NCBI GenBank assembly: GCA_007859835.1
Contig: SJPJ01000001.1
Coordinates: 333,169-397,168, forward strand
Origin: Novipirellula herctigrandis
Lineage (GTDB): Bacteria; Planctomycetota; Planctomycetia; Pirellulales; Pirellulaceae
DNA length: 64,000 bases
Direction: 5' to 3'
Position numbers and translations under genes: made by a program. How positions within the stretch are numbered: the stretch's first letter is position 1; every line of letters begins with the position of its first letter. Under the pieces are notes generated by a model. The model was not told where the DNA came from, ran no database searches, and saw only the letters and a list, made by a program, of their open reading frames with translations. Positions 1,811 through 57,585 of this stretch are shown in pieces.

Positions 1811-1872
1811 GGATAATCTGCGTTGGATAATCTGCGCGGGTGAATAGGTGTTGGTGAATAGGTGTTGGTGAA
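1811..1872. repeat. two abutting 14-bp tandem duplications
   Basis: GGATAATCTGCGTT occurs at 1811-1824 and again, 12 of 14 bases, at 1825-1836. Four bases later GTGAATAGGTGTTG occurs at 1840-1853 and 1854-1867, followed by a partial third copy to 1872. The two units are unrelated in sequence but have the same length. No gene crosses them. Confidence 0.9.
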
Positions 1873-1951
1873 CCGGCCTGGGGCGATTTTCTTGAAGCGT
1901 CTGGCGTCTTGCCGGCTGGGTAACCACCGAGGCATCGCGCGAGGTGACGCC

Positions 1952-2044
1952 ATGATTACCGACGACTTCAAAGACACGCTCGTCGAACAACCGGCCATCG
2001 CCCTGTTCTCGGAACTCGGCTACGACTTGGCCAAAGGTTTCTAG
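1952..2044 (+). pseudogene. relic of type I restriction enzyme R subunit (HsdR N-terminus)
   Basis: A 30-codon ATG frame reads MITDDFKDTLVEQPAIALF and then SELGYDLAKGF before a TAG. The core LVEQPAIALFxELGY is the pattern expected at the very start of HsdR subunits of type I restriction systems, which normally run to roughly 1000 residues. A GAGGTGACGCC leader precedes the ATG at ribosome-binding distance. Nothing recognisable follows the stop and no hsdM or hsdS is nearby. I read it as the stump of a deleted restriction-modification locus. A chance match in so short a peptide cannot be excluded, though the motif match is good. Confidence 0.5.
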
Positions 2045-2152
2045 GAAAAGCGTCTTCCAGCGATTCGCCCCAGGGACGGGAAGTAGAACGAGATGGCGGT
2101 TGCATCTATCATTAGCTTTCTGACGTTCTAATTGGCATCATAAAAATCGTTA

Positions 2153-4867
2153 ATGGTTCGATTCAAGGCTAACCGTATGGCAACAATTTCTACGTTGAAG
2201 CATTTTGTGATGGCGGCGGTGGTTGGGTTGTTGCTGCAAAGCTCACTCGAAGGGCAACCTACTGAATCGATTAGCCCCGATGGGGTGTTGCGAGCCGAGT
2301 TGCCAAAGCCTCAATGGCGGGCGTCGTGGATCTGGATGCCCAACGGCGACGAGGCGGACATGTTGTTGGCACGCAAGGACTTCATGTTGGCGGACCAGCC
2401 CGAACAAGCAATGCTCTCGATTACGGCGAGTTCGCGATTCCAGTTATTCATTAATGGCAGCTATTTTTGTAACGGCCCCGCTCGCTGTGCTCCCCATCAT
2501 CAATCGTTTGATGTTTTGGATGTGGCCACGCGTTTACGGAAAGGACGAAATGTTATCGCAGTTCGCGTGCATCACCAACGCGGCGCAGTCTCTTACTACG
2601 AGCCTTCACGCGCGGGGTTGCTCGTGCAACTCGATATATCAGAGGAAAAGTTAAATGTCGCTATGCAAACCGATGCCAGTTGGCGAGTCACTGCGGATAA
2701 GAGTTGGCTGAACTCGTCACCGCCAATGGCGAGGTTTCATCTCGAAGCTTGTGACCGCGTCGATCTGCGCCGCAGACTCGATGGATGGAATGAAGTGGGT
2801 TTCGATGACACGCTTTGGTCGAAAGCGAGAGTCCTTAAGCGAGAGTCGGGATGGCCATCGCCTCAGCCAAATGATCGCCCAACGCACTTGATTCCGCCAT
2901 GGACATCACTCACGGCAAGGGACATTCCCTACTTGAGGGAAACCGTGGCTGAGCCACAGCGGATGCTGCCAATCATCAGTGTGCCGGATGTTCCGTCGCC
3001 GAAACATTTTGGTAGTGACACGTGGGACGACGCCCCATCGATTGGTCGTTTCACGGTACGTCCGCCAGAGAAGAACGGGACGCCGAGTGGCGTTTTAGAA
3101 TCGCCATTAGCTGGTGCAATGAGTAGCACGCTGACGATTCCAGCAAATGCTTCGGGGGGAAGCCGTACGCTTATTTACGACTTTGGCGAAGTCCATAATG
3201 GCCGCCCCGTTTTGGATATTATGGCCCCCGCCGGAACCGTGGTCGACATCGTGTCAAGCCCTTATCTGTTTAACGATGTGTTTCCTGATCCGGTGGTTGC
3301 GTCCCGCTATGTGGATCGTGTCGTGCTATCGGGAAAACGCGAACAGTGGGAGTCGTTTTATGGGAAGCCGGTACGTTGGATGACGGTCATTTTTCGTCAC
3401 CTCGATGGTGAGGCGAAACTGTTTGGCGTGAATGCGAGGGTTAGTGAGTATCCTTTTGACCAGAAGGGGGCTTTCCGAACACCGGAATTTCCACAATTGG
3501 AGGAGCTTTGGAACGCTTCGGCAAAGACGATTCGGGTTTGCACGACTGATGCTTATACTGATAACTATCGTGAGCGACGGCAATACGCTCAGACCAGCTA
3601 CTACGCATGCTTGGGGAACTACCCGGTTTTCGCCGACAGTGCATTGCAACGTCGCTATTTGAAGCAAATTGCAGACGAACAATTGCCCAATGGAATGATG
3701 CCGGCCTACGCACCGCGCCATGGTGAGGACTTCATGGTGATTCTCGATTCGAATTGTTTTTGGCTCCGAGGTCTTCATCAATACTTGCTTTACACGGGTG
3801 ACGAAGCGACCGTACAGGGATTGTTGCCCGCAGCACGCAAACTGCTTTCTCATCTGCAAAGCTTTGCTAACGCGGATGGACTGATCGATAGTCCGGCTTA
3901 CGCCTATTGGTTGGACCATGCAATGAACGATCGGCGAGGTGCGAATTTCTGTTTGAACGGGCACTATTTGGCTGCGCTCGAGGATTTCGCCCAAGTGTTG
4001 CGATGGCTGGATATACCAAATGCCGAGAGCCCAAATGCCGAGAGCCCAAATGCTGAGAGCTACGAAGAACAGGCAAAACGGATGCGTGTTGCGCTGCGTG
4101 AACAGGCTTGGGACCCTGAAAAGCAACTCTTCGCTGATGCGATTGTTGATGGCGAACGGTCGGATCAGTTCAGTGAGCATGCCAATGCAATGGCGATGGC
4201 TCTGAGAATTGGAACTCCGAAACAAATCGAGGCGATCGCCTCGCAATTGAGCAAGGACGAGGACCACGATTTTATACACCGTGAATCGGGCATCGTGATG
4301 GTCACCCCGGCGATGTCCTACTTCCTGCACGCCGGTCTCTGTGAAGCCGGCTTTCTAGATCAATCAATGGAGCTGGCTTGGAGCCGATTTGCTCACATGC
4401 TAACGCCCGTGGCAAACGGAACGCTTTGGGAAGAGTGGTGGTTAGACGGTACAGGTCGGACGGGGCGTTTCCGCAAGATCAATTACGGACGCAGTGACGC
4501 ACAGACCGAGAGTGCGTTTTTCCCCGCACTTTTCGCGCGGTACATACTCGGTATCGAGCCAATGCAGCCCGGGTTGCGAGACGTGGTGTTGCGCTACCAT
4601 GCGTCGAGTCGCCTGCTTCACCGCCATGGCGTGATTCCGACACCCTCGGGACTTCTTGAAGTGAATTGGGATACGAGTTCAGCAGAGTTTCGCTTGACAT
4701 TGGGTGTGCCTGCGGGGACGACGGCCCGAGTGGATCTGGCGAGTCTCGAACGGCCCCCTCACAATCGCATTTCATTGAATACAAGACCGGCATCGCATGA
4801 TCAAATTAAAAACGGTTTTCTCATCCTGCCGCCAGGAAAGCACAACGTGATCGTCAAACGCCAGTGA
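2153..4867 (+). CDS. exported GH78-like alpha-L-rhamnosidase
   Basis: Likely exported glycoside hydrolase of the alpha-L-rhamnosidase type, releasing rhamnose or a related 6-deoxysugar from polysaccharide. A second ATG at 2177 starts a cleaner signal peptide (MATISTLKHF then a hydrophobic run) and has AAGG eight bases upstream, so the true start may be there. N-terminal beta-sandwich: WRASWIWMP and FQLFINGSYFCNGPARCAP near residues 55-115, the usual sugar-binding fold before the catalytic barrel. The (alpha/alpha)6 catalytic part has DNYRERRQYAQTSYY near 467-481, corresponding to the acidic catalytic loop of GH78, and GTLWEEWW toward the C-terminus. Residues 622-636 are three near-identical NAESP repeats encoded by a 15-bp tandem repeat in the catalytic region, probably in a surface loop. 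Family assignment is fairly sure; substrate is inferred. Confidence 0.8.
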   Translation: MVRFKANRMATISTLKHFVMAAVVGLLLQSSLEGQPTESISPDGVLRAELPKPQWRASWIWMPNGDEADMLLARKDFMLADQPEQAMLSITASSRFQLFINGSYFCNGPARCAPHHQSFDVLDVATRLRKGRNVIAVRVHHQRGAVSYYEPSRAGLLVQLDISEEKLNVAMQTDASWRVTADKSWLNSSPPMARFHLEACDRVDLRRRLDGWNEVGFDDTLWSKARVLKRESGWPSPQPNDRPTHLIPPWTSLTARDIPYLRETVAEPQRMLPIISVPDVPSPKHFGSDTWDDAPSIGRFTVRPPEKNGTPSGVLESPLAGAMSSTLTIPANASGGSRTLIYDFGEVHNGRPVLDIMAPAGTVVDIVSSPYLFNDVFPDPVVASRYVDRVVLSGKREQWESFYGKPVRWMTVIFRHLDGEAKLFGVNARVSEYPFDQKGAFRTPEFPQLEELWNASAKTIRVCTTDAYTDNYRERRQYAQTSYYACLGNYPVFADSALQRRYLKQIADEQLPNGMMPAYAPRHGEDFMVILDSNCFWLRGLHQYLLYTGDEATVQGLLPAARKLLSHLQSFANADGLIDSPAYAYWLDHAMNDRRGANFCLNGHYLAALEDFAQVLRWLDIPNAESPNAESPNAESYEEQAKRMRVALREQAWDPEKQLFADAIVDGERSDQFSEHANAMAMALRIGTPKQIEAIASQLSKDEDHDFIHRESGIVMVTPAMSYFLHAGLCEAGFLDQSMELAWSRFAHMLTPVANGTLWEEWWLDGTGRTGRFRKINYGRSDAQTESAFFPALFARYILGIEPMQPGLRDVVLRYHASSRLLHRHGVIPTPSGLLEVNWDTSSAEFRLTLGVPAGTTARVDLASLERPPHNRISLNTRPASHDQIKNGFLILPPGKHNVIVKRQ
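4016..4060 (+). repeat. in-frame 15-bp x 3 tandem repeat inside the GH78-like gene
   Basis: CCAAATGCCGAGAGC is present three times (4016-4030, 4031-4045, 4046-4060), the last copy with one base changed. It encodes NAESP repeats and keeps the reading frame. Confidence 0.95.
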
Positions 4868-4908
4868 CTTTGTACGAGTGGAGCATCTCGGATGACGCGG
4901 TTGACGAC

Positions 4909-4932
4909 TTTTTTTTGTTGCGATGCTAGACT
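4909..4932 (+). promoter_or_regulatory. T8-GTTG-YGATGYTAGMCT motif, copy 1
   Basis: Eight T residues followed by GTTGCGATGCTAGACT. Almost the same 24 bp recurs at 21081-21104 with only three differences. TAGACT could serve as a -10 element and TTGTTG or the T-tract as an upstream element for the methyltransferase starting 100 bp downstream. Promoter function is inferred. Confidence 0.35.
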
Positions 4933-5916: not shown

Positions 5917-5928
5917 GCGATTTTCAAT

Positions 5929-11861: not shown

Positions 11862-13244
11862 CTAACGCACGATGGCCAATTGTGCTAATGACCGCGCGTT
11901 GCCATGGGCGATATGGATCGGCATCCCGCTACGGCAAGTGACTCGTCCATTGGGCATCACGCTAACTTCGCCAACAGGGCGATCGTGGACGCAATAGTTC
12001 CAACTTTCGGGTATCTCTTTCCAACGTTTTGGATCGCTATGGCAATAAAGATTGAATGCAGATTGATCACCCCAATCGGTGGTGCCACGGAGTTCGGCTG
12101 AATTGCGAAGACGGTCGGCTTCCTTAAAATAGCGGTGCATTGCTCCGGCAGTGCCGGCACTGAAGCCGCTGTTAAGAAACGGCCGCGTCGAAAATAATTC
12201 AAATGCACGTTGACGCATGGCAGGATTCTGAATGGTGCGGGTCCAACCGACGACCGCCATATTGTGAGGATAACCGAGTGGTTCGCGAACGCCGAAAATT
12301 TTGTCTGGATGATCCTGGGTCATTTTCCAGAGCGGATCGAGGCTCGCTTGAATGATCACATCGCTGGCATCCCAATAGGCGACCGGCAGTTGTGGATCAA
12401 GTGTTTCGGTGATTTCAGCAAAATCGGTCAACCGACGCACCGGTGGCATCTGACCGTTCGCCACCTTATGAATGAAACGAACGCCACGACACGAGGCCAC
12501 CAATCGACTTTCGCTCGGATACAGGCCATAGCCAACTGCAATGACCTCTTGTTCGTTACCGGACGCTCGCATCATGCGAAGAAAGACATCCCGAAAGCGA
12601 TTGACATCGCGTCGATTGAAAGCGACCAGCACCTTTGCGTCGCTACTAAGCGAAGGACAACTCACCGAATTAGATTCGGGCGAATTGGATTCGGATGACG
12701 CGATTTCGCAATGGTCTTCATCGCGGTGGGCTGCTAAGTGTGATGCCGTTGCGCCCGCCAAATATTCGATTCGCGATCCAGTTCGTCGAATATCTTCGCA
12801 GCAGCAAAGACACTCGCATTTGCTCGTTTCCCACCGAAAGGCGATACGTTGGAGCACCGATCGGCGAAAAAGTGTAGCCCCCATCGAAACGTGGGGAGAA
12901 GTCCCGTGTCGAGCGGCCTCCCCTAAATAGTCGGCCCCGAAGGCAGAAAATTCAGGACGCGAAGCGAGGGCATGGTGAAGCCGCGCGATGCAATCAGGGC
13001 CTAGTGCGACATCATCATCAACAAACATCAACCAAGGGCTTGTCCCCAATCCAATCGCCTCGTTCCGTGCACGCGTGATGGTCGCGATCCGATGCGGATC
13101 GTCCGCCGATGGAGTGCCGACGACGCGATGCAGTTGGATACGCACACCTCGTTGCTGACGAAGCGCGTCGAGTACGGGCGCAGGTAAGTCGTTGTCGTCA
13201 CGTGTCAGGATAACGACATCGATGATGGGGACATCGAATCTCAC
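11862..13244 (-). CDS. two-domain glycosyltransferase (GT2-like plus a second GT-A-like domain)
   Basis: A 460-residue protein with two apparent nucleotide-sugar transferase domains. Residues 1-170 are GT2-like: VDVVILTRDD-type opening strand, ARNEAI, and the metal-binding WLMFVDDDVALG at 71-82. Residues about 205-460 look like a separate transferase: KVLVAFNRRDVNRFRDVF opens it, VAYWDASDVII supplies a D-x-x-D acidic site, and PFLNSGFSAG plus TTDWGDQSAFN resemble acceptor-side motifs of GT-A enzymes acting on glycoproteins or short glycans. The linker contains a degenerate 15-bp tandem duplication encoding SESNSPESNS (12667-12695). It lies 25 bp downstream of the small unknown gene, so the three genes are likely co-transcribed. 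Confidence 0.7.
   Translation of the reverse strand: MRFDVPIIDVVILTRDDNDLPAPVLDALRQQRGVRIQLHRVVGTPSADDPHRIATITRARNEAIGLGTSPWLMFVDDDVALGPDCIARLHHALASRPEFSAFGADYLGEAARHGTSPHVSMGATLFRRSVLQRIAFRWETSKCECLCCCEDIRRTGSRIEYLAGATASHLAAHRDEDHCEIASSESNSPESNSVSCPSLSSDAKVLVAFNRRDVNRFRDVFLRMMRASGNEQEVIAVGYGLYPSESRLVASCRGVRFIHKVANGQMPPVRRLTDFAEITETLDPQLPVAYWDASDVIIQASLDPLWKMTQDHPDKIFGVREPLGYPHNMAVVGWTRTIQNPAMRQRAFELFSTRPFLNSGFSAGTAGAMHRYFKEADRLRNSAELRGTTDWGDQSAFNLYCHSDPKRWKEIPESWNYCVHDRPVGEVSVMPNGRVTCRSGMPIHIAHGNARSLAQLAIVR
12667..12695 (-). repeat. 15-bp tandem duplication in the linker of the two-domain glycosyltransferase
   Basis: GAATTAGATTCGGGC (12667-12681) is followed by GAATTGGATTCGGA (12682-12695), one mismatch. 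It encodes the ESNSP / ESNS repeat between the two transferase domains and keeps the frame. Confidence 0.8.
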
Positions 13245-15513: not shown

Positions 15514-18500
15514 TTATGGTTCCCGCGGTTCAGAGTCCAGCGGCGTTATGCGGGCGGCGGGCGTTATGCGGGCGGCGGGCATTGTACGGGCCACTCGAAG
15601 CCCCATGTACAGGTGATGTGCGACGGTCCGCGATTCTTCGCGTTTCGCGCTGCGTAACGTGGTTGGGACGTAAAAGACCGCGCTACCTCGTAGGATGTTG
15701 ACATCCGACCGCGAACGGCTTGAACCGATACGGTCGTCCAACACAACCGGTTGGGAAAAGTTCCTCGGAGGAGACACTTCACACCATTCCATCACGTTTC
15801 CAAGTGCATCGAACAGTCCGAACCCATTGGGCAATAGTTGCCCGGTCGGATGGAAACTCACTTGTGAATTGATGGTGGAACTTTCGGTCGTCCACGCATA
15901 CTTGGGCAGCAATTCGGATGCGTTTCCGAAAGGCCGTGGCGTGGTGGTCAACGCGCGGCAACAGTACTCCCATTCCGCTTCGGTAGGGAGTCGATATCCG
16001 GTTCGCTCTAAAAAATTGTCCGGAAGTGTAAAAGTATCCGAGGCATCAAGTTCCGCACGCATCTGATCAATCGGTGGGTAACACATTTGGTCCTCGGGAA
16101 TCCCTTCTTGTTCACTCAACCAACGACAATAGTTCATGGCGTCGTACCAGTTTACTGCGGTTACCGGGCAGTCCTTGCTTGGCGTATATTCCGTCGCATA
16201 CAACGCTGCCGGATTGAATCTTTGAAACTGTTCAACGGTGATTTCGGTTGAACCGATCGCGAAGCTTCGAGGGATGCGTAAATTCACAGAAACTTCCTTG
16301 TCGTGATCTCGAAACGCTTCGTGTCCAGGCGAGCCCATTCGGAATTCAACCGGTCCATCGATGGCGACCATCGTTTGTCCCTGGCCATTGCGAAACCATG
16401 TGGGATTACTTGTCGTGGAAACTTTGGAATGCGAAGGGGACACCGGCGAAGGGACGACCGGCGATGGGGCGTTTTCGATTTCGGCATGGATTGCGGGCCA
16501 ATTCCATTGTCGGCACAGGTAACCGCAAATCGAATGGATCGCAGCCGACGGGTCGCTGATACCCCAAACTCGGATTTTCTCACGCATTCGGAGCAACGCT
16601 TCGGGCGATAGTTGTTCCGGCCGATATCGGGAAAGGGCAGCGATGATTGCAAACCGTCGCGATTCACTTGGATCAATCATCATTCGATCAAAGAGCCGAT
16701 TTGGATCGGCGCCAAGCGGCGCCAAACGGTCAATCAAGAAAGACCGCAATCGACAATCAGGCTGACTACCTAAAAACGGCCAAAGATTCTCCGAAGAACC
16801 TAGTCGTAACATCGCGATCAGCGCATTGGCTTGCCGACTCGCAACTTCATCTTTAGCATCATCCGAGACGATTGGTCGGTGCCAAACGGATGAAACGACT
16901 AGATGGTCTGCGTGCTCATCGAGCACGACGGAGATGCTTACGGGGCGAAAGTCTTGATCAATGAAATCCTGGCATTTTCCAAGGTGCTGTTGGGGATCAA
17001 CCCGGGTCAGCGATTTTGACTCCATCTTGCCACCGTTCCACCAAACAGCGGCATAGCTGATATCCTGCTCATCGAATTCACCGGCGGCATTCATACGCAC
17101 ATCCGTTTGATGCCACCCGTCCAGCACTCGCGATTCATAGCCAAACTGCGAGTGGTTCCAAGCGTCGTCGCATCGCGGGTGTGCTACGGTTCGCCATCGA
17201 ACCGAACTGTAACGGTCGACTCCGTCCGAATGACGCAACTTCATGTTTGATTTAGGCACATAGCCACCGTCGACAAGCGGTCCCCATCCTTCTTCTTGAT
17301 GTTCCTCTTCGGTCAAACCAACGTAGATTCGCGAGTCAATCATCGATTCGAGGGCCTCGGTCCATAGAACACCGTATTCAATTTCATCACCGTTAATGTC
17401 AGGCTGCGGAAAGACAGTAAAATCCATCGGATAGAGACCTCGCTCTTTCATCCGATCTTGGGTGTCGGTAACTTCCTCACGATCGCGGTGACGCGTGAAT
17501 TCCCAATCCAATTTGTCTCGCATCCATATCGCTGCAACGTAGCTTTTATCAGCGAACTGGTACGCACGGACACAGCCGGGGCGGTAGCCAAACGGTTCCA
17601 GCTGTTGGGCGACTTCTTGAAACTGATCGAGCGGCAATCGTTGGCAGAAAACAAAGCTGGCAGTTGCAATTCCTTCAAAGCTCTCAATGTCTGAGCGTGT
17701 GGCCGCGTCGATTTCCATCGCAGTCTGTTGATCCGCAATGGCAAGCTCGGGCCACTTCGATGACGCTACCATTGTCAATTCTTCTTCGAGCCTGCTAATC
17801 ATCGACTTAGGATCCGACTCGGCCACCGGCAGCAACAATTCGAATTGAGCCGGTACCGCAGTGCTCAGCAAATCTTTCAACTCGGGATCGGTAGGTTTAA
17901 GGCATTTTGACAGAATAATCGCGGCGTTTAGTCTAACGTCATCTCGTTCGGGTTCACCGAAGTAGCCCTGGACGGGCTTGGATAAGTAACCTGCAATGTT
18001 CGCGATTCCAGGTGCTAATTCGACGACTAAAGTGGTGCGTTGGTTTACGATCGTGTGTGAGAGTCGTTCGACCTGTTCAAGCCAATGCGGGTTCCCGGGA
18101 TCGAGTTGAGCCAAAGCGAACGCAGCCTTCAACCAATGAGCCTCGTGGACCTCTTCGGACTGCACAATGTCCCAAAGCCGCATTGTCGACTCATCAAGTC
18201 GCAACCGCAGTCGCTCGCAAATCAACAGGATTTGATCTATATCTGCATGAACCAACGAATCAACGAGTGGCTGAGTTTGATCGGGATCACTGTCGACTAA
18301 CGCCAAGCGAGCGGCAAGAATCTCGTCCGTGGACCGATTCGGGTCGCCGATGACGGATCGTATTTCGGGTGCCGCCTGCTGTGCCATGGGTCGCAAAATC
18401 TCGATCGACTCAAGCACGTGATCCGTATCGGCTGCCAACAGCCGTTGCACGCTCATTTGTATTTCTTGCTTAGCTAGGTGCTGGCGTATTTGTTGGTTGG

Positions 18501-20928
18501 ACCAAAACACGGCCCAACCGATCAACATCGCTATCACTGCCATGAACGCCCACCGCGTACCATGATAACGTGTCGCCGCCTTTACTAGCTCTTGTTCGTC
18601 CGCAGTGCGGCCCGACGCGCTCGTTAGTGCCAAGAATCTCAAGTGCTCTAAACCACTCGGCAGGAAACGACTTTCCCGCTTGCGCCGCCAATATTGTGTC
18701 AACTCCTGAAGCCGCAGCTTCGCACGTCCTCGCCGCGTTTGTCGATCACTACGGGTCAACCACTCACGCAACGGCGGAACCAAGAAATCGTGCGTCAATT
18801 GGTAAGACCGTGATGAATTCCCGCCGTTACCTTCGTTACCGTCGTTACCGTCGTTACCGTCGATGGCAACGGTAGGCGTGATCATCCGCAATTCTTTATC
18901 AAGAGCATCAACCAATTCATCAAATTCGCGCTGATTCAATTTCGATACTTCCCGCAGCCGGGAAACATCTTTCATCTGGCCTTTGATATTGGTGCCGACT
19001 TCCGGCAGAAGTTCTCCCAAAACGGCCCGAGCTGGCACTTGCATCGAACGATGATGGGGCGAGGCGACCGAATCATTGAACGTTGCGTCGAGAAAGTTGA
19101 TGTCGACGCCCTCCGATCCACTGAATTCGGAAAGCGTTTTGAGGTTCCATTCACGTCCTTTTAGCATTTGTGCAAGGACGACCAAGTGAATGGAAATCAC
19201 TTTGCCATCCTCTTGCACCGAGTCGACTAAACCCCGCACAAACTCACTTTGCTCATTGGTCATCTCACTCGGGTCGTCCGGCAAACAACCGTACGCGCGG
19301 CCAAATTCAGTCAACACGTAACGGGCGTGGCGAAGTTCAAATCGATCCACCGCTGTGCTGTTGATGTCTTGAACCAACCGAATATCAAGTTCGTGAAAAA
19401 AACGCGTTGCAGGCATCCAGAAGTCGTCGCGGATCAACACAATGGATTGCAAATGGATGCCATCGCATTGGCGGATTGCGTTGAGCAGTTCGGTGTCATC
19501 GATGATGGAGTGGGAATGAAGCCATTGTTCGAATTGATCCAAGATGACGACGACTTTCTTGCCTCCCAGCACTCCGCCTTTGCGAATCGCAGCCATGACC
19601 TCGGTAAGCGATTTCGGCTGTTCTTGGTTTTCCAGCAGTGGTGTCAGCAAGTTCAACATGCGTGACTCCGTATTTTTGGCATCCGATTCCACGTAGATCA
19701 CATGAACCGAATCATCCAATAAGGGCACCAATCCTGCACGGATCAAAGAGGATTTTCCGGAACCTGATGATCCATACAGCAGACCAACACGAAACGACTC
19801 GTCGAGCTTGCGAGACTCGATCCGAATCTTCAGGCGGCGGATAATCTCAGGAATCCCGTGTGCGTCTCGAGTCCCCGGAACCAACTTCAAAAAGAAATTC
19901 TGATCGTGTTCATCAAAGGCACGCAACCCTTTGGGGATCACCGGCGCGTCGTTCAACAATCGGTTACGTGTGGGATGCTTCTCCAGCCCCGAAGCCCCCG
20001 AAACTGAGAAATCCATACTTTCGTCAGCTACCCCTTTGCGTTCCGCGAATCGGCGAAGATCATTCGCCATGTCGCTGCCGAGAAAGTAACGATCGGATAG
20101 TCGCTGCGCGAGTGCCTTCATGCAGATGCGTTCCAATTCAACGTCGATGTTGGGATCGAGTTGGCGCAGCGGTCGCGGTTCGGCACGAACGATGTTCTGA
20201 AGCAATTGTTGACTCGAACTGCCCGTGAAAGGACGTTTACCCAATAGCAATTCGTATAGAACGATGCCCAATGCGAAGATGTCGGCACGCCCGTCCACCA
20301 AATGACCTTCGCCACGAGCTTGCTCAGGACTCATGTACGAATAGGTTCCGACTAGCATTTTGCGTTCGGATTGGCGGATGACATCGTCATCTCGAATTGC
20401 GAGTCCAAAATCGGCCAGCCAAGATCGATTATTTTTTTCGATCAAGATGTTACTTGGCTTGACGTCGCGATGCACGATTCCTTTTTCATGTGCGTGCTGT
20501 AGTGCTTCGGCCATGTCGCGAATCCATGCAACGCTCTGCTCGATAGACGGGTTGCTCCGCTGTAGTCGTTCTCTTAGGTCATTGCCTTCAATGAACTTAG
20601 ACACAACGTAAAACGGAAATTGGTCCGTCGATCCGACATCGTAAACGGGAACGATATTCGGATGGTCGAGCATCGCGACCACCCGAGCTTCCGCGTTCCA
20701 CTTGGAAGGGTCAGCACGATCGGACGGCAATCGGTGAAGGACTTTGATCGCAACTTCACGGGCGAGCGAGTCGTCTATGGCCCGGAAAACCGTCCCAAAT
20801 CCGCCTTCTCCTATCGCTCCCAAAACTCGATAACGACCGATCGTTTTCGGAAGCGGAAGCGCTTTGCGTGATTCACGATCATCGGGTGTGAAATCAGCGC
20901 ACTTCGTACTTTCGTTGACATCCGACAC
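15514..20928 (-). CDS. giant Ser/Thr kinase - nSTAND NTPase - repeat - FGE-fold fusion
   Basis: An 1804-residue signalling protein with a GTG start. The kinase domain is at about 28-295: IGEGGFGTVFRA, VAIKVLH, HRDVKPSNIL, LADFGLA and YMSPEQARGE, all catalytic residues present. A STAND-type NTPase follows (about 335-700): Walker A GSSGSGKSS near 388 and Walker B KVVVILDQFEQW. A poly-GND stretch (about 689-701) comes from a 9-bp tandem repeat. A membrane helix lies near 790-810 (WAFMAVIAMLIGWAVFW). HEAT-like helices and several W-containing beta repeats (YVAAIWMRD, YAAVWWNGG, VVSSVWHRP) resembling bacterial tandem repeat domains follow. Residues about 1519-1785 are an FGE/sulfatase-modifying-factor fold (MVAIDGPVEFRMGSP, YRLPTEAEWEYCCRA, GNVMEWCE) lacking the catalytic cysteines. 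The tail repeats PAARIT twice. Role: presumably a membrane-anchored sensor that triggers a response on ligand binding. Confidence 0.85.
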   Translation of the reverse strand: MSDVNESTKCADFTPDDRESRKALPLPKTIGRYRVLGAIGEGGFGTVFRAIDDSLAREVAIKVLHRLPSDRADPSKWNAEARVVAMLDHPNIVPVYDVGSTDQFPFYVVSKFIEGNDLRERLQRSNPSIEQSVAWIRDMAEALQHAHEKGIVHRDVKPSNILIEKNNRSWLADFGLAIRDDDVIRQSERKMLVGTYSYMSPEQARGEGHLVDGRADIFALGIVLYELLLGKRPFTGSSSQQLLQNIVRAEPRPLRQLDPNIDVELERICMKALAQRLSDRYFLGSDMANDLRRFAERKGVADESMDFSVSGASGLEKHPTRNRLLNDAPVIPKGLRAFDEHDQNFFLKLVPGTRDAHGIPEIIRRLKIRIESRKLDESFRVGLLYGSSGSGKSSLIRAGLVPLLDDSVHVIYVESDAKNTESRMLNLLTPLLENQEQPKSLTEVMAAIRKGGVLGGKKVVVILDQFEQWLHSHSIIDDTELLNAIRQCDGIHLQSIVLIRDDFWMPATRFFHELDIRLVQDINSTAVDRFELRHARYVLTEFGRAYGCLPDDPSEMTNEQSEFVRGLVDSVQEDGKVISIHLVVLAQMLKGREWNLKTLSEFSGSEGVDINFLDATFNDSVASPHHRSMQVPARAVLGELLPEVGTNIKGQMKDVSRLREVSKLNQREFDELVDALDKELRMITPTVAIDGNDGNDGNEGNGGNSSRSYQLTHDFLVPPLREWLTRSDRQTRRGRAKLRLQELTQYWRRKRESRFLPSGLEHLRFLALTSASGRTADEQELVKAATRYHGTRWAFMAVIAMLIGWAVFWSNQQIRQHLAKQEIQMSVQRLLAADTDHVLESIEILRPMAQQAAPEIRSVIGDPNRSTDEILAARLALVDSDPDQTQPLVDSLVHADIDQILLICERLRLRLDESTMRLWDIVQSEEVHEAHWLKAAFALAQLDPGNPHWLEQVERLSHTIVNQRTTLVVELAPGIANIAGYLSKPVQGYFGEPERDDVRLNAAIILSKCLKPTDPELKDLLSTAVPAQFELLLPVAESDPKSMISRLEEELTMVASSKWPELAIADQQTAMEIDAATRSDIESFEGIATASFVFCQRLPLDQFQEVAQQLEPFGYRPGCVRAYQFADKSYVAAIWMRDKLDWEFTRHRDREEVTDTQDRMKERGLYPMDFTVFPQPDINGDEIEYGVLWTEALESMIDSRIYVGLTEEEHQEEGWGPLVDGGYVPKSNMKLRHSDGVDRYSSVRWRTVAHPRCDDAWNHSQFGYESRVLDGWHQTDVRMNAAGEFDEQDISYAAVWWNGGKMESKSLTRVDPQQHLGKCQDFIDQDFRPVSISVVLDEHADHLVVSSVWHRPIVSDDAKDEVASRQANALIAMLRLGSSENLWPFLGSQPDCRLRSFLIDRLAPLGADPNRLFDRMMIDPSESRRFAIIAALSRYRPEQLSPEALLRMREKIRVWGISDPSAAIHSICGYLCRQWNWPAIHAEIENAPSPVVPSPVSPSHSKVSTTSNPTWFRNGQGQTMVAIDGPVEFRMGSPGHEAFRDHDKEVSVNLRIPRSFAIGSTEITVEQFQRFNPAALYATEYTPSKDCPVTAVNWYDAMNYCRWLSEQEGIPEDQMCYPPIDQMRAELDASDTFTLPDNFLERTGYRLPTEAEWEYCCRALTTTPRPFGNASELLPKYAWTTESSTINSQVSFHPTGQLLPNGFGLFDALGNVMEWCEVSPPRNFSQPVVLDDRIGSSRSRSDVNILRGSAVFYVPTTLRSAKREESRTVAHHLYMGLRVARTMPAARITPAARITPLDSEPREP
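15544..15579 (-). repeat. in-frame 18-bp x 2 tandem repeat at the kinase C-terminus
   Basis: CGTTATGCGGGCGGCGGG occurs at 15544-15561 and 15562-15579. It encodes the PAARIT duplication just before the stop codon. Confidence 0.95.
18825..18860 (-). repeat. in-frame 9-bp x 4 tandem repeat in the kinase/nSTAND gene
   Basis: CGTTACCGT (first copy CGTTACCTT) repeats four times and encodes the Gly-Asn-Asp/Glu run that separates the NTPase helical region from the following domain. Confidence 0.9.
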
Positions 20929-21583: not shown

Positions 21584-21629
21584 GATTCGATACTTTCTAT
21601 AGGAGCGACGTTTGATTACAACGGCCCGC

Positions 21630-21657
21630 TCAGTTCCAGGGACTCAGTTCCAGGGAC
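21630..21657. repeat. 14-bp x 2 tandem repeat between lipoprotein and DUF1559 genes
   Basis: TCAGTTCCAGGGAC is present at 21630-21643 and 21644-21657, identical copies in the 130-bp intergenic gap. Confidence 0.95.
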
Positions 21658-22961: not shown

Positions 22962-23588
22962 TTGAGGTTACCTCCGGTAAGAAGAGAAACAAACAACAAA
23001 AATTTGGACAACACAGTCCAATCAAAAAAATCAAATTGCTGAACGGCAATTAGTCTTGAAACTTCGACTCGGTCCTACAAAAAACACATTCGGATCTTAA
23101 CACAACGTAAACACAGTTACCTGCAATTACATCGCGTACATTCAATTTGACTGATAAAGATCCGGATATCAACGGCGGAATACCTAACTGTAACGCAGCG
23201 CAACGGCCTGCCACACCCGGCGGGGCGGTTTCCAAACAGCCCCACGTGGGTAGTGCCATTCATGTTGGTTGCCACGTGAAAAGTACCTGTCGACTCGATC
23301 TCCCTCTCTATGGATGGCACCGGGAACGGCACCGGGAACGGCACCGGGAACGGCACCGGGAACGGCACCGGGAACGGCACCGGGAACGGCACCGGGAACG
23401 CGGTCGAAGCAAAATGGCTATCAAGCGGTCGGCAAGGCCTCCGCAATGGTCGGGATGTAATGTTGCCTTAATGGCACTGTACTGAATCATCAATGCGCTC
23501 CCTATCGCACACTTTGGCTTGGCTGCGTCGATAGCAGATTTCGACCGACTAATGCGGTCGGAATCGCAGGCTGACCGACCACTGTATT
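22962..23588. other. gene-poor stretch with a 12-bp tandem array
   Basis: No credible gene. The stretch carries the DUF1559 leader and the seven-copy 12-bp array at 23316-23399; frames crossing the array translate to simple repeats (FPVP, RHRE, APGT) and are artefacts of the array. Confidence 0.6.
23316..23399. repeat. 12-bp x 7 perfect tandem array
   Basis: GGCACCGGGAAC is repeated seven times without a mismatch. The unit is GC-rich. The perfect identity of all copies points to recent or ongoing expansion, making copy number a likely strain-variable marker. Confidence 0.95.
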
Positions 23589-24005: not shown

Positions 24006-24612
24006 GCTTTTTCTCTCGTATGCCAAAGTGAGAAGAAGCCACATACGTCTCAAAGGCAAGCCTTCGTCGTGGCAAGGTCATCCGATGTCAGTCAATGAGT
24101 CACAACGCGAATCGTGTGCGAAAAACGAGATTTGGCGGTGGCAATTTTGACACGGGCGAGCGGGGATGGTCGAAGTGAGACTCTGCATTCGATCGTGTTT
24201 TGCATTCAGCACGTCAGAACACAACTTTGCCAATCACCTGATCTCGATTCAAACTTTGGAATACGTCTGTCGTGTGGGATCCTGCGACCAGTGGCATCGA
24301 TACTAAGTGGCATCGATACTAAGTGGCATCGATACTCATTGGCAAAGTCTTGATGTTGGCAAAGTCTTGATGTTGGCAAAGTCTTGCGATTTTCACTCGC
24401 CTTCGATTCCGCGTTCGCAGTAGTAGCGAACGTCGTCGAGGCGTATGGCATTATCTAGTAACGGCTGAAACTTTTGACGAATTCCGCTACCCTAAAAATA
24501 TGGGTTGACGAAACACAAGCCCTCACCCTGGATATGGGCATTGGGTGCGAATGGATTTTTAACCTTGACCGTTTTGTTGTCTGTCCCGTTACACATTCCT
24601 ATTTGGAAGAAG
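24006..24612. other. intergenic stretch with two abutting tandem arrays
   Basis: No gene seen apart from the leader of the sulfatase gene. The notable content is the pair of arrays at 24291-24386. Confidence 0.55.
24291..24386. repeat. abutting 16-bp x 3 and 17-bp x 2.8 tandem arrays
   Basis: GTGGCATCGATACTAA occurs at 24291-24306, 24307-24322 and 24323-24338 (last copy one mismatch). Immediately after it TTGGCAAAGTCTTGATG occurs at 24339-24355 and 24356-24372, with a partial third copy to 24386. The two units are unrelated. Confidence 0.95.
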
Positions 24613-33125: not shown

Positions 33126-34475
33126 CTAAACAGTCAATTTCCATGGGTCACGATATGGCTTGTTAACGAAACGATTCGCTTGCTCGTCATCAATAACCAC
33201 CTCTTTCTCACCATCCCATTGGATACTACGGCCGACTTCCCAGGAAACATTCATCAGATGGCCGAGGTTCGTTGCGTAATGGCCGGTTTGTGCATCGGTT
33301 TTTGGCTGAGCGCGATTGCGGAGATTGTCTAGAAAAATTTGGGTGTGATGGAAGTCATCCTTTGACGACACGATTTCCTCTTCTTTTCTGAGCAGATAAC
33401 TCGCGTCACTTTGCGAAATGTTTTTCTTCGGCTCCGGTGCAATCGAAATGCGACTGCGATCAAGTACCATGGTCGCCTCGGTGCCGTAAAAGCATTTTGC
33501 GTGCGAGCGTCGCACACGTCGCGACCCCATCCGCATGGTGTATTGAAGCAAGAATCCGTTCTTGGCGACCGGCCCAGGACCAAATTCCATCATCGCATCG
33601 AAGGTGTTCGGATATTCAAAGTTATCTTGGTAAGCAAAGTGCCCCCCCATGGCCGAGACTTGCTTAGGATACTTCACTCCCATTGCCCAGTTGACGATGT
33701 CAAAGTGGTGTACACCCCAGGCAACCTGATGCCCGCCGCCGGAGAGTCGAAACCAATCGTAACCGTAGTTGTAATAAATATTGGGATTGTAGTTTTGCAT
33801 GGGAGCTGGCCCGACATAGAAATCCCAATCAAGTTCCTGTGGCGAGTCGCAATCGGCAGGCGTCCCACGTCCGGGGGCCCAATAAGTGTGATCCCATACT
33901 TTTACTTCACTGATCTCGCCTAGACGTCCCGATTGAATGATGTCGACCGCTTTTCCGTAGTGCTCCATACTGTGTTGCTGTGTACCTACCTGCACGATTC
34001 GGCCGTATTTCTTTGCCGCCTCGATCAGGTATTGTCCTTCGCCGATCGAGTTTCCTAGCGGTTTTTCAACGTAGACGTCCTTACCGGCTTGGCACGCGGC
34101 AACGGCGATTGGCACATGCCAATGCGCCTGCGTCGCGACAATCACCGCATCAATGGTCTTGTCTTCAAGCAGTTCGCGGAAGTCTTTGTAAGCTTTAACC
34201 TTATTGCCACCTGCCTTTTCACGTCCTCGCTTTAGATGCTCCGAGTTCACGTCGCAAACCGCGGTGATTTGTACGCCCGGAAGTCGCTGGAAACTCGGCA
34301 TCACTTGATTTGCACCTCGAGCCCCGCAGCCGATCAAGGCGATATTGATCGTATCGTTAGAGCTTGCATATGCGGAATGCGTAGCTGCGTATCCAGTGGC
34401 GATCGACGCTGCTGCGGTTCCCAAAAACTCTCGACGGCTATTTACTCGACGGCTATTTACTCGGGCACGGATCAT
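33126..34475 (-). CDS. Tat-exported Gfo/Idh/MocA family oxidoreductase
   Basis: Probable periplasmic NAD(P)-dependent sugar oxidoreductase, 449 residues from the ATG at 34475. The twin-arginine signal reads RVNSRRVNSRREFLG, with SRREFLG the functional motif; a 15-bp tandem duplication (34431-34460) has doubled the RVNSR unit. Rossmann fold: INIALIGCGARGANQVMP, TAVCDVN, and the family signature DVYVEKPLGNSIGEGQYL with catalytic Lys. The C-terminal beta domain contains GGHQVAWGVHHFDIVNWAMG. Planctomycetes carry many such proteins, thought to act on unusual sugars. It is followed by the exported methyltransferase. Confidence 0.9.
   Translation of the reverse strand: MIRARVNSRRVNSRREFLGTAAASIATGYAATHSAYASSNDTINIALIGCGARGANQVMPSFQRLPGVQITAVCDVNSEHLKRGREKAGGNKVKAYKDFRELLEDKTIDAVIVATQAHWHVPIAVAACQAGKDVYVEKPLGNSIGEGQYLIEAAKKYGRIVQVGTQQHSMEHYGKAVDIIQSGRLGEISEVKVWDHTYWAPGRGTPADCDSPQELDWDFYVGPAPMQNYNPNIYYNYGYDWFRLSGGGHQVAWGVHHFDIVNWAMGVKYPKQVSAMGGHFAYQDNFEYPNTFDAMMEFGPGPVAKNGFLLQYTMRMGSRRVRRSHAKCFYGTEATMVLDRSRISIAPEPKKNISQSDASYLLRKEEEIVSSKDDFHHTQIFLDNLRNRAQPKTDAQTGHYATNLGHLMNVSWEVGRSIQWDGEKEVVIDDEQANRFVNKPYRDPWKLTV
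34431..34460 (-). repeat. 15-bp x 2 tandem repeat in the Tat signal peptide
   Basis: TCGACGGCTATTTAC at 34431-34445 and again at 34446-34460, identical. It encodes RVNSR twice and so creates a second Arg-Arg pair. Confidence 0.95.
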
Positions 34476-47375: not shown

Positions 47376-48130
47376 GCGGGCAAGTTTAGGCAAACGGCGA
47401 GCCGTTCGCAACTGAGCAAAAAAAAGACCAAATTGCGATGGCAGATGCGATGGAAAACCCTGGCTAACTGCTACGAATACCAATCATTGGCCGATCAAGT
47501 GTGACGATCGGGAGCTTCAGCGATACTTTGACGAATCAAGCCGGGTAAATGGATCTTGGGTTGGTTCGCTCAGCGGGGACACCCCCGAGACGTATCATAA
47601 ACACGGGCATCGTTAAACAAGCGAGCGAGGTGAAGAACGTCAACACAAATGGCCGAAATCTTGATTCCCAATGTTCGCCCAAAGTTGCCTTGGTGACCTA
47701 CAAGGCGCAACCTAGCCCCCAAACGCCGTGCCAACGCGATTTCGTTTGCCCGCGGGTTGCGGTGGCTAAAACGGTCTGCTGCAGGAATTCAGTTGGAACG
47801 AGTTTTTTCAATTTTTACCGTTAGCGAAACTTTTGCGACGCCTACCGCAGAGTTTCAACCACACACCAAACGAGTCACCTCGAAACCGATAGCCATTTAC
47901 TGTACAATGTATACCGATTGCGACAGACTCCCGACAGTTGCGACGTTCGTTCTACATCTATTCGTTTGCTGTTCAATTATCGCCGCACTTGTGGACTGAG
48001 TTTGCGTCGAATTCTGGTATCGGTCGAATTCTGGTATCGGTCGAATTCTGGTATCGTTGGTGAAGATGCCCATCCGGGCAACCAACTTGGAATTGATTGG
48101 CAGCGGACCTCATTATCGCGGGAGAGACCT
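47376..48130. other. 755-bp divergent control region of the solute locus
   Basis: No convincing gene. The region separates the glycosylglycerate operon (leftward) from the sucrose operon (rightward) and should contain both promoters and any osmotic control sites. It carries the 17-bp x 3 repeat at 48006-48056. Confidence 0.5.
48006..48056. repeat. 17-bp x 3 perfect tandem repeat upstream of sucrose-phosphate synthase
   Basis: GTCGAATTCTGGTATCG occurs at 48006-48022, 48023-48039 and 48040-48056 without a mismatch, ending 74 bp before the ATG of the synthase, in the probable leader or promoter. Confidence 0.95.
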
Positions 48131-50353
48131 ATGTCGACCACAAACGCAACCGACTGGGAACATCTACTCACAACGAGACAACAACCCGTCATGAGCCTTC
48201 TCGACAAAGAGAATCATCTTAAAATTACACTTATCAGCCTGCATGGGCTGGTTCGAGCGAATGATCCCGAATTGGGTTGCGATGCTGATACGGGAGGCCA
48301 AGTCAAGTACGTTTTAGAACTTGCCAAGGAACTAGCCGCTCAGCCGCAAGTGCGCGAAGTGGAGTTGCTGACAAGACAGATACTGGATTCCAAAGTAGAT
48401 CCTTGTTACGCGCAGTTGGAAGAACAGATTGCTGAGAATGCGAAGCTGATTCGAATTCCGTTTGGTCCCAAACGATACTTAAAGAAAGAAGCCTTGTGGG
48501 CTCATCTCGAATTATTTGTTGATCAAACGCTCGTCCATTTCCGTCGGCACGGATTACCCGACATCATTCACGGGCACTATGCCGACGCCGGGATGGCCGG
48601 AGCTCAGTTAGCTCGATTGTTGCATATCCCCTATGTATTTACCGGCCATTCACTTGGACGCGTCAAACGCCAGCGACTTTCGACGGGAAAGAAAAGTAGT
48701 GAGTTATTGGAACGTCGCTATCGATTTGGGCCGCGAACCGAAGCGGAAGAGTTCGCACTCGAAACGGCCGCGATGGTCGTTACCAGCACAAGCCAAGAAG
48801 TCGAACAACAATACTCGTTGTACGACCACTATGTACCGGACCGCATGGAAGTGATTCCTCCGGGAGTCGACTTGGATCAGTTTTCGCCGCCGACCGACGA
48901 CTGGGAGCCGCCGAAAATTGGCGATGAATTAGCTCGGTTTTTGCAGCATCCCGACAAGCCAATGATCTTAACCTTGGCTCGCCCTGATGAACGTAAAAAC
49001 TTAGAAAAGTTGGTCGAAGTTTACGGTAATAGCGAGGAACTGCAAAAGGTCGCCAACTTGGTGATGCTGATGGGAACTCGCGACGATCTCTCCGACCTGC
49101 CCAAGGGACAGCGCACCGTTCTTCAAAATGTGATGCGTCTGATTGATCACTACGATCTATACGGCAAAGTCGCTTATCCGAAATCCCATACAACGTTTGA
49201 TGTTCCGGAGCTTTACCGGTTGGCAACTGCTGGCAAAGGCGTCTTTATTAATCCTGCGTTGACTGAGCCCTTTGGATTAACATTGCTTGAAGCTGGTGCG
49301 ACTGGCTTACCGATCGTCGCAACCAACGATGGTGGCCCGCGAGACATCGTCGCGAATTGCAACAACGGTTTGCTAATCGACCCGCATGATGGCGAGGCAA
49401 TCGAGAAGGCGCTGCTGCGAGTCCTTACGGAACCGGAACAGTGGCAAGAATGGTCCGAAGCAGGAATCGTTGGAACGCGTAAGCACTACTCTTGGCATAA
49501 CCATGCGCGTCGGTACTTGAGAGATTTGAATGACATTTTGGAACATTCGGCCAAGCCAGTGTTGCAAGATGGTGCGCGTGCTCGCCGGATACCCGAATTT
49601 GATCGATTGATAATCACCGATTTGGATAACACACTCACGGGAGATGACGAGGCACTCGGTGAATTCAATGAATTGATTCGGGAACACGAGAACATTGGGT
49701 TCGGTATTGCCACCGGGCGAACGTTGGATTCAGCGATGAATTTGATTGAAGACCTTGGGTTGCCTCGCCCCGATTTAATCGATACCGACGCAGGAACGCA
49801 GTTGCACTATGGCGAAAAACTGACCCCCGACCGATCATGGCAAAACCAGATTGCGGATGCTTGGCAGCCCGAGGAGATTCGCAAGGTCTTGGACAACTTA
49901 CCTGGGTTCTATCTCCAGCCGGATGATCACCAATCAAAATACAAGATCAGCTACGAAATCGATCCCGAAAAATCGCCATCCCCGACTGCCGTAAAAAAAA
50001 TTCTACGCGCGGCGGGGTTACGTGCTAAGGTTATATTGTCCTTGGAAATGTATCTGGACATTCTGCCAGTACGCGGTGGCAGCGACTTGTCGATGCGACA
50101 TTTGCTTTGGAAATGGGGTTTTTCTCCTGAACATGTGCTGGTTGCAGGGGATTCGGGCAACGATGCCGGAATGTTATTGGGCCGTACGCTCGGTGTTGTG
50201 GTAGCCAATCACGGGCCGGAATTGAACCGTTTGCGAAACCGACCTCGAATATATTTCGCAAAAGCTGCGCATGCCCGCGGAATACTTGAAGGCATTCAAT
50301 ACTACAACTTCCTGGATAACATTGTCATCCCGAATGATCGCATCGAATCCTAA
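48131..50353 (+). CDS. sps: sucrose-phosphate synthase with C-terminal HAD phosphatase domain
   Basis: A 740-residue bifunctional-type sucrose-phosphate synthase. The ATG at 48131 has GGGAGAG upstream. The GT4 synthase part (about 30-480) shows [32 protein letters not shown] (nucleotide-sugar site), [47 protein letters not shown] and [17 protein letters not shown]. The C-terminal HAD domain (about 490-730) has [16 protein letters not shown] and [12 protein letters not shown], so, unlike the plant SPS tail, both Asp residues of the first motif and the terminal acidic motif are kept. It could make sucrose-6-phosphate and also hydrolyse it. The stop lies 20 bp inside the amylosucrase gene, so translation is probably coupled. 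Confidence 0.9.
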
Positions 50354-55189: not shown

Positions 55190-55351
55190 CTACTGCTATT
55201 ACGTTGCTGAAAACAGAAGCTCGTTTATCGCAGTTGTGTTTCGTGCATCGCAAGAATTCATTGAGCCACTCCGTACGCCGTTTAGATTTCTGCACAGCGT
55301 GGCGCTACGGTTCAGCGCGGCCTATGTAAAACTTAGCAAAGCACTTGGACT

Positions 55352-56503: not shown

Positions 56504-56628
56504 GGTTGCCTCATGTGCGTTGTTTATTGCAGCTTGATAGTATCCAACCAAGCGATCCGCCATGCAACCATGGATCCATCAATTTGATTTGATTGAAGGC
56601 ACTGCGGAACTACGACCGAGCAACGAAA

Positions 56629-56663
56629 AATGGCGAGCGTTTCTTAATGAAACGTTCGCCATT
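56629..56663 (-). terminator. terminator downstream of the repeat-rich secreted protein gene
   Basis: AATGGCGAGCGTTTC (56629-56643) and GAAACGTTCGCCATT (56649-56663) pair over 15 bp with one G-T mismatch; on the minus strand the stem is followed by TTTTTCG. It ends the 56713-57585 gene. Confidence 0.75.
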
Positions 56664-56712
56664 GATTCAATCTCGATCATTGTGAGAGTTATGTTTGGCT
56701 CCGCTACTCGAA

Positions 56713-57585
56713 TCAGCTACGGGAAAAGCTTAGGCCGCCGTTGGTTGCACCATCGAGCTTGAAGGTGAAGCTATTCTCGCTCCCTGTCCACGTTCCCGTC
56801 ATTTGCTGCAAATCGTTGGACCGGACCAAGGTCAGTTGACCGTTTTCGAGTCGGAATTGGCCGCTGAAACTGCTGGACTTGCCCTCTTTTGTCGCTGTCC
56901 AAGCGAAGCTGCCATCGTTGTTCAATTTCAGATCTACCGATTGGTTTCCAGGCAAGCTAACTTTCCAGCTGCCGACATGGCTGGCGACCGGCTGTGAAGT
57001 GGATGTCGGTGAAGCCGCAGCGGTAAACTCTGGAATTTGCGACGCGGTCGTCGCTGCATTCTCCGTTGCCGGTGCGTTCAACGACGCCAGCATCTGCAAC
57101 GCGGACGATTCGGAGTTCGTTGACGTTGTCGCTTGCTGAACGACTACTGATGGTTTCTGTGCCGCGGCAACCGAACGTCCCGGCGAAGAGTTGCGTTGTG
57201 TCTTTGGAGTCGGTTGCGAAACAACGCGGGGTCTTGGGACCGATTGTGTGGGTGCAGATTGTACCGGGGCCGCTTGTACCGGGGCCGCTTGGATCGGGGC
57301 CGCTTGGATCGGGGCCGCTTGGATCGGAAGCGATTGGTAACTGACTTGTGAAGTAGCGGGAGCGTAAGTCGGCTGCTGGTAGGCAGGTTGTGAGTATACC
57401 GATTGCGAATAGCTTGGCTGATGGTAAGCAGGTTGTGAGTAGGAAGGCCGCGAATAGGAGGGACGCGAGACCGATCGGCGAAAACCGCCGCCACCGCCAC
57501 ATGCTTGCGCCGAAGGAATACCGGAGGTAGCTAAGGATGTTGCGGCAGCGAAAGCGACGACGATGTTTTTGAATGAACGTTTCAT
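56713..57585 (-). CDS. secreted Ser/Tyr/Pro/Gln-rich repeat protein with beta-barrel-like C-terminal module
   Basis: A 290-residue exported protein with no known function. Signal peptide MKRSFKNIVVAFAAATSLAT; then CGGGGGFRRS, then imperfect S-x-P-[SA]-Y repeats (RPSYSRPSYSQPAYHQPSY), then five PIQAA/PVQAA units encoded by a 15-bp tandem repeat (57261-57335). The C-terminal 80 residues (VGSWKVSLPGNQSVDLKLNN onward, ending FKLDGATNGGLSFSRS) form a beta-rich module whose pattern recurs at the C-terminus of the protein at 59097-60002. The repeats suggest an extended stalk, and the module perhaps a small ligand- or lipid-binding barrel. First of several small exported proteins between 56.7 and 61.6 kb. 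Confidence 0.7.
   Translation of the reverse strand: MKRSFKNIVVAFAAATSLATSGIPSAQACGGGGGFRRSVSRPSYSRPSYSQPAYHQPSYSQSVYSQPAYQQPTYAPATSQVSYQSLPIQAAPIQAAPIQAAPVQAAPVQSAPTQSVPRPRVVSQPTPKTQRNSSPGRSVAAAQKPSVVVQQATTSTNSESSALQMLASLNAPATENAATTASQIPEFTAAASPTSTSQPVASHVGSWKVSLPGNQSVDLKLNNDGSFAWTATKEGKSSSFSGQFRLENGQLTLVRSNDLQQMTGTWTGSENSFTFKLDGATNGGLSFSRS
57261..57335 (-). repeat. in-frame 15-bp x 5 tandem repeat (PIQAA/PVQAA)
   Basis: Two copies of GTACCGGGGCCGCTT, two of GGATCGGGGCCGCTT and one diverged copy follow one another from 57261 to 57335. The pairwise identity of neighbouring copies shows stepwise duplication. Confidence 0.95.

Follow-up and report, generated by a model that had tools for sequence, protein, structure and literature searches.

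What process scatters short tandem duplications of unrelated sequence along a planctomycete chromosome, and leaves those within genes in frame, is the question raised by the window analysed here, a 64-kb stretch of the Novipirellula herctigrandis genome (9.5 Mb) spanning bases 333169-397168 of an 8.58 Mb contig. When one window gene was searched in named genomes, its nearest matches were in planctomycetes such as Stieleria and Fuerstiella. A sequence-only reading had claimed thirteen arrays of 9-18 bp units in the window, and TRF recovered all 13 with the places and unit lengths it had given. Its division of the arrays into genic and intergenic was also right on inspection of the translations. 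On the plus strand, an alpha-L-rhamnosidase-like gene (2153/2177-4867) contained three 15-bp units encoding PNAES repeats (4016..4060), with a single substitution in copy 3. The other genic arrays were on the minus strand. Two imperfect 15-bp units (12666..12694) encoded SPESNSPESNS in ORF 11862-13244, whose 460-aa product had no Pfam match. An 18-bp unit (15542..15591), near the C-terminus, and an imperfect 9-bp unit in 4.7 copies (18821..18862) both lay in gene 15514-20928, which encodes an 1804-aa protein with protein kinase, STAND NTPase and FGE-sulfatase domains. The 18-bp array had been counted as two copies, for which TRF gave 2.8; mismatches inside the 12667 and 18825 arrays were a small correction to the earlier description. 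A 15-bp unit in 2.3 copies (34430..34463) encoded VNSRRVNSRR near the N-terminus of a Gfo/Idh/MocA oxidoreductase gene (33126-34505). The last genic array, placed at 57261 with a 15-bp unit, proved to be two overlapping 15-bp variants, together 4.6 copies (57259..57327), encoding PIQAA/PVQAA repeats in ORF 56713-57585. The automatic gene caller treated this array as intergenic but its translation favoured a genic position, in an ORF of 290 aa that abounds in Pro, Gln and Ser and has a sole Pfam match, Extensin_1, below cut-off.

Between genes, a 14-bp unit in 1.9 copies (1810..1836) was followed 2 bp later by an unrelated 14-bp unit in 2.4 copies (1839..1872), and a further 14-bp unit occurred in 2.1 copies at 21629..21657. 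A perfect array of 7.1 copies of 12 bp (23316..23400) was judged intergenic: the automatic gene caller predicted a 53-aa ORF made mostly of the repeat, but the translation favoured an intergenic position. Upstream of a sulfatase gene (24505/24541-26199), three 16-bp units (24290..24337) were immediately followed by a 17-bp unit for which TRF gave 2.8 copies (24339..24386), so that across 24290-24389 two different units, each in about three copies, abutted end to end; the 17-bp array started where a partial extra copy of the 16-bp unit would start (TTGGCA/GTGGCA in common). Finally, 3.0 copies of a 17-bp unit (48006..48056) lay upstream of a sucrose-synthase-like/S6PP gene placed at 48131-50353 by the automatic gene caller. 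No Rfam family was found in the window at gathering score. An exact-repeat scan of the window (9-25 bp) also gave 13 arrays, compared to an average of 0.12 in 50 first-order Markov shuffles; its rows differed from those of TRF in splitting 57259-57327 in two and missing the imperfect array at 12667. All six genic units were multiples of three, as against one of seven intergenic units (Fisher p=0.005), as had been claimed.

To place the window in context, exact arrays of 10-25 bp units were counted, one per cluster, in the window and 40 further 20-kb stretches of its contig (together 864 kb, ~9% of the genome), in two genomes of the same genus (G001, 400 kb; G002, 240 kb, sampled almost entirely from one contig) and in one of another genus of the same family (G014, 440 kb). 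The G014 sample had been extended since its first 40 kb was rich (5 arrays); of its 56 rows in 440 kb, 51 fell in the later 400 kb. Controls (1,433 kb) comprised 920 kb of 13 other planctomycete genomes and 513 kb of 36 named loci from planctomycetes and other phyla, obtained by a single-gene search of named genomes. Density was 87/Mb in N. herctigrandis (75 loci in 864 kb), 122/Mb in G001 (49 loci in 400 kb) and 107/Mb in G014 (47 loci in 440 kb), against 17/Mb in the pooled controls (25 loci in 1,433 kb; p<1e-13 for each of the three). G002 was lower at 38/Mb (9 loci in 240 kb). High density is not the trait of one species, since it recurs in the same-genus G001 and in another genus (G014). 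Individual control genomes, sampled at 40-120 kb, had between 0 and 50/Mb, and no array was found in 150 kb of E. coli K-12. Nine single-contig controls were also poor (together 11 arrays in 620 kb), so the low control density is not a product of draft assemblies. The arrays occurred all over the sampled N. herctigrandis genome, far more densely than chance predicts and more densely than most related genomes in the sample, in agreement with the earlier expectation, and their spread over the 40 20-kb stretches was consistent with Poisson (mean 1.45, variance 1.64, p=0.27). Pairs within 200 bp numbered 3 in N. herctigrandis (1.5 expected) and 6 in G001 (1.4 expected), and pairs within 1 kb numbered 9 (7.3 expected) and 14 (6.6 expected), which is suggestive of local clustering in G001 only.

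The sequence-only reading was correct that units are short, but its loose 9-18 bp range can be refined to a peak at 15. Exact intergenic arrays of 5-150 bp units, excluding units with an internal short period, were compared with shuffle expectation. Both N. herctigrandis and G001 peaked at 15 bp (11 and 8 arrays, respectively, with 0 expected in each). N. herctigrandis was close to shuffle at 7 and 8 bp (8 vs 5.4 and 2 vs 2.0) and had a small excess at 9 and 10 bp (2 vs 0.2 and 2 vs 0), with a single array, of 30 bp, above 25 bp. G001 showed some excess at 7-8 bp (13 vs 4.4; 8 and 5 vs 4.0 and 0.4), which was larger in controls (42 vs 8.2; 30 and 12 vs 5.6 and 2.6), whereas controls held just 4 arrays at 13-17 bp. 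Per Mb, exact intergenic arrays of 13-17 bp numbered 213 in N. herctigrandis, 355 in G001 and 28 in controls, and those of 7-8 bp numbered 85, 184 and 294. As controls were higher in the shorter class and far lower in the longer, the special class of the rich genomes is the 15-bp one. Mean intergenic unit size (9-25 bp) was 15.06 in N. herctigrandis, 15.28 in G001 and 15.18 in G014 (n=32, 29 and 28), with medians of 15 and standard deviations of 2.8-3.7 across the three; a slightly less strict criterion placed 70 of the 105 intergenic units in the 10-25 bp range at 13-17 bp. Most arrays had 2-4 copies, and some reached 7 or more. The size was already present in two-copy arrays (median 14.5, n=54; median 15 at three or more copies, n=35), though arrays of three or more copies had somewhat longer units (15.9 vs 14.7, p=0.04) and a slightly tighter spread (sd 2.7 vs 3.4). 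The low-rate genomes (controls and G002) yielded 12 intergenic arrays of 10-25 bp with a mean of 15.25, loci of Bacteroidales and Bacillota being among them; these 12 arrays, a small number, suggest a general size of ~15 bp with a lineage-dependent rate. Separately, G001 contained ten intergenic arrays of 35-81 bp, of which the 35-43 bp ones contain palindromes and were set aside as another class. G001 arrays built on a GAGACGC/GAGTCTC-type palindrome, many of them with 35-43 bp units (L079:11580-14244, L080:7353-7539, L087:13676-13929 and L147:4454-4621), form a REP-like family apart from the 15-bp arrays.

That selection removes frame-breaking events had been proposed from the window and appears to be so in the wider sample. 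We pooled N. herctigrandis, G001, G014 and G002, kept one array per 40-bp cluster, and dropped short weak ORFs, ORFs made mainly of repeat, and arrays near N or across gene borders. Units were multiples of three in 58 of 61 genic arrays and in 40 of 108 intergenic arrays (Fisher p=6e-15), the latter no different from one third (p=0.42). Excluding G002, counts at 12, 15, 18 and 21 bp were 10, 26, 10 and 7 in genes and 8, 19, 7 and 3 between them (p=0.89). Given this agreement, one source seems to feed both sets, with selection filtering the genic one by frame. Density in the three rich genomes was 37-41/Mb in genes and 294-486/Mb between them; since one third of the intergenic density is ~100-160/Mb, some 60-75% of in-frame genic events also seem to be lost. 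Genic arrays favoured the ends of genes: of 59, 14 fell in the final tenth and 18 in the initial two tenths. Convergent gaps carried 23 of 102 placed intergenic arrays on 13% of intergenic bases (p=0.007), a density of 618/Mb compared to 309 and 319 in other gap types. Genic units were enriched in E, S, P and G and depleted in L, I, W and Y; on the coding strand T was depleted (0.153 vs 0.229), and A was at 0.266 compared to 0.244 in host genes. We note that ~15-bp duplications supply large planctomycete genomes with in-frame protein repeats.

Many of the arrays are probably recent. Among 13-17 bp intergenic arrays, perfect copies outnumbered one-mismatch copies by 64 to 20 in rich genomes (10 to 7 in controls), whereas two- and three-mismatch arrays were similar in both, numbering, net of chance, 15.5 and 14.7 in 273 kb of rich genomes and ~14 each in 202 kb of controls. 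Such a profile is compatible with recent births over an old background shared by both sets, or with rapid turnover. G002 held the closest orthologues of the two array genes compared (81% and 67% identity), and both arrays (4016 and 34430) were absent from them, the rhamnosidase-like orthologue being 10 aa shorter at the site of the 4016 array. The G002 stretch upstream of this orthologue held no array, and window 1734-2152 could not be aligned to it. It is from the excess of perfect copies and the absence of the two arrays in G002 that we infer recency.

The units themselves gave little sign of sequence specificity. Units had been described as unrelated, with no single mobile repeat, and this was borne out in the three rich genomes, where only 2 of 2,211, 3 of 1,176 and 2 of 1,035 unit pairs had a 9-mer in common. 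The commonest 6-mer occurred in 3 of 37, 3 of 37 and 3 of 31 units, no more than the 3-5 seen in equal-sized sets of flanks. A dispersed repeat family (REP, CRISPR or small dispersed repeats) was rejected, as sampled loci of the three genomes had no unit sequence in common beyond chance. Visual inspection of base counts at 32 junctions showed no boundary motif, and no inverted repeats were found in window 23200-24600, the sole stretch tested. The 105 intergenic units showed no base bias relative to their flanks (A+T 0.475 vs 0.481; A/T imbalance 0.161 vs 0.173). Stem length in units did not exceed that in shuffled ones (2.79 vs 3.08), giving no hairpin excess, and slippage driven by hairpins was rejected. 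In contrast, junctions carried more homology than expected. At 34 clean two-copy intergenic junctions (arrays without a degenerate third copy alongside), extra homology of 0, 1, 2 and at least 3 bp was found in 11, 6, 5 and 12 cases, with 19.1, 9.6, 3.6 and 1.7 expected; at 25 clean two-copy genic junctions the counts were 12, 3, 1 and 9, with 14.1, 7.0, 2.6 and 1.3 expected. A simulation of blind duplication gave nearly identical null shares (0.55, 0.28 and 0.11). Flank identity beside two-copy arrays was 0.45-0.58, compared to 0.24 in the control. Clean intergenic arrays with three or more copies (n=20) had overhangs similar to those of the two-copy junctions, as whole-unit growth would leave. 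A reading in which runs one base short of the unit reflected a spacer base was dropped, because two copies with a single difference produce the same runs between them.

The best explanation, and in our view a reasonably probable one, is a sequence-independent duplication of ~15 nt, probably by strand slippage, followed by selection on reading frame. Under this explanation, a segment of ~15 nt (mostly 13-17) of any sequence would be copied beside itself at scattered chromosomal sites, most likely when, in the course of replication or repair, the strand being extended or displaced moves back by ~15 nt and pairs again, often with the help of some matching bases. From a pair of copies, more slippage would add whole units, so that arrays grow to 3 to 7 copies or beyond. 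Purifying selection would then strip nearly all frame-breaking and the larger part of in-frame genic events, leaving survivors in intergenic DNA, at the ends of genes and in frame. Arrays of this size were seen at low density in the other bacteria sampled, and were 5-7 times denser in the N. herctigrandis lineage and two others. The excess junction homology, the lack of motif, hairpin or base bias and the lack of Ku together favour slipped-strand mispairing and disfavour end joining and a site-specific enzyme, although homology would help rather than be required, since 11 of 34 intergenic and 12 of 25 genic junctions had none. A point against slippage is that ordinary slippage is expected to fall with length, not to peak at 15. 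Since units are slightly longer in arrays of three or more copies, the peak may owe something to retention as well; as a guess, the step could be held at 15 by a polymerase or primer footprint, or by helix geometry. ExoVII, RecJ and the PolA 5' nuclease guard against such duplications. All three (ExoVII as its large subunit) were encoded in 12 of 12 high- and low-rate genomes, MutS was present in N. herctigrandis, G001, G002 and G014, and, of 12 genomes from the window's family, none had SbcD (TIGR00619) above its curated cut-off and 11 had weak matches. Loss of one of these five genes was rejected as the cause of the raised rate, as no correlation was found. SbcD exceeded the same cut-off in 8 of 14 control genomes.

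Alternatively, staggered double-strand breaks or paired nicks ~15 nt apart could be filled in and end-joined, the stagger setting the length. End joining with fill-in yields duplications in eukaryotes, and such a model would account for both a fixed length without sequence specificity and junctions with zero homology. We nevertheless consider it unlikely, as Ku was absent from N. herctigrandis, G001 and G014, the sole Ku among 12 genomes being in the low-rate G021, and as both the excess homology and the lack of sequence bias at the boundaries of 32 junctions count against it. The size also resembles that of some integrases: a casposase leaves a 14-15 bp target-site duplication, and Cas1 is encoded in N. 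herctigrandis and G001. However, Cas1 was not found in the high-rate G014 and was found in the low-rate G015, G025 and G034, while lengths varying over 10-25 bp, copy numbers up to 7 or more and the missing boundary motif make target-site duplications of a since-excised integrase or transposon, for example of Cas1 type, a very improbable source. An assembly or sequencing artefact is scarcely credible. Some arrays do abut runs of N (gap or mask), and these rows were dropped from the junction, size-mean and frame sets and kept in the exact spectrum and density counts; but artefacts would ignore reading frame, which nearly all genic arrays respected, three separate assemblies agreed in size, and single-contig controls were equally poor.

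It is also quite unlikely that arrays of ~15 nt are kept by selection because a protein or RNA needs their spacing. Constant size with variable sequence has been read as functional in Bacillus repeats of 20-21 and 52 nt (PMC8161180), and the slightly tighter size at three or more copies is in line with such a role. Against it, the size is already there at two copies and genic lengths agree with intergenic ones, density is highest in convergent gaps and genic arrays favour gene ends, where constraint is presumably low, and units have no 6-mer in common beyond flank level. Moreover, density is high in G001 and G014 and low in the same-genus G002, which holds the closest orthologues of the two compared genes. 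A size present at two copies, equal inside and outside genes and found at presumably low-constraint places points to mutation. Returning to slippage, we offer more tentatively the broader proposal that ~15 nt, some 1.5 helical turns, is a general bacterial step set mechanically at birth rather than by selection, low-level in many bacteria and raised in scattered lineages. Slippage as the mechanism, unit-wise expansion, and selection as the cause of the frame bias are what we infer from these patterns.

The duplications are thus real and lineage-elevated, narrow in size and clearly filtered by frame; they are ordinary in kind, being tandem repeats probably made by slippage, and unusual in density and constancy of size. 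Like VNTRs and minisatellites, for which slippage is the usual explanation, they are short head-to-tail units, but they differ in having a single size peak and roughly 90-120 loci/Mb when two-copy arrays are included. No mechanism had been thought described for this group, and a search of openly licensed papers by titles and abstract starts found no ~15-bp duplications in planctomycetes; processes of this general kind have, however, been published for other organisms (PMC8161180, PMC9879509). The bacterial repeats of Subirana and Messeguer keep a constant size (20-21 or 52 nt) while varying in sequence, have a patchy taxonomic distribution and seldom conserve array length between strains (PMC8161180). 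As here, there are many units of near-fixed size and different sequence, rich species stand beside poor relatives, and repeats are mostly non-coding with a separate multiple-of-three class in genes. Their sizes (20-21 or 51-53 nt) differ from the 13-17 nt found here and vary by one nucleotide, a stricter spread than ours; the available text also reports shared short motifs and sequence families, neither of which we found. That survey needed 4 copies, whereas arrays here have mostly 2-4, and two-copy arrays, junctions and the frame filter are what the present analysis examined beyond its available text. Borg extrachromosomal repeats are pervasive, recent and unrelated, with ORF units all divisible by three compared to 14-38% of intergenic ones (PMC9879509). 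They resemble our arrays in their unrelated units, frame rule in ORFs, partial repeats at flanks and T depletion in ORF units. Borg units, however, have a strong A bias where our intergenic units have no base bias, and were collected at thresholds of at least 50 nt and at least 3 units, as against a 15-bp peak in a bacterial chromosome.

A further comparison is with satellites, which the available text of PMC6749651 puts at ~2-23/Mb in the bacteria it lists (four or more repeats; 4/Mb in Rhodopirellula baltica). At four or more exact copies, N. herctigrandis had 15/Mb by a different program, which is high yet within that range. The same source gives densities of 7 to 89 per Mb within Methanosarcina, and describes Burkholderia as having short satellites of 12, 14 and 16 nt that arose from 6-8 nt microsatellites. 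Our arrays are alike in their large within-genus density differences and predominance of short units, although short units in these two groups are microsatellite-derived or -related and units with an internal short period were excluded here. A 15-bp peak is not described in the available text of PMC8161180, PMC9879509, PMC6749651, PMC4060949 or PMC2884548. Repeats of constant size and variable sequence have been called enigmatic and their size read as functional (PMC8161180). If the general step is true, such repeats would instead record a mutational machine that steps by 15, 20-21 or 52 nt depending on lineage. Intergenic two-copy duplications, counted by unit length, provide a signature scannable over all genomes.

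Two other features of the window were seen during these comparisons. A 5.1-kb query (22500-27600) had matches in 57 of 60 relatives, and the end of a DUF1559 (SBP_bac_10) gene (22763-22935), present in several copies per genome, took nearly all matches among those listed. The Gfo/Idh/MocA oxidoreductase had at least 77 matches in N. herctigrandis, at least 81 in G002 and 18 in the same-genus G001.
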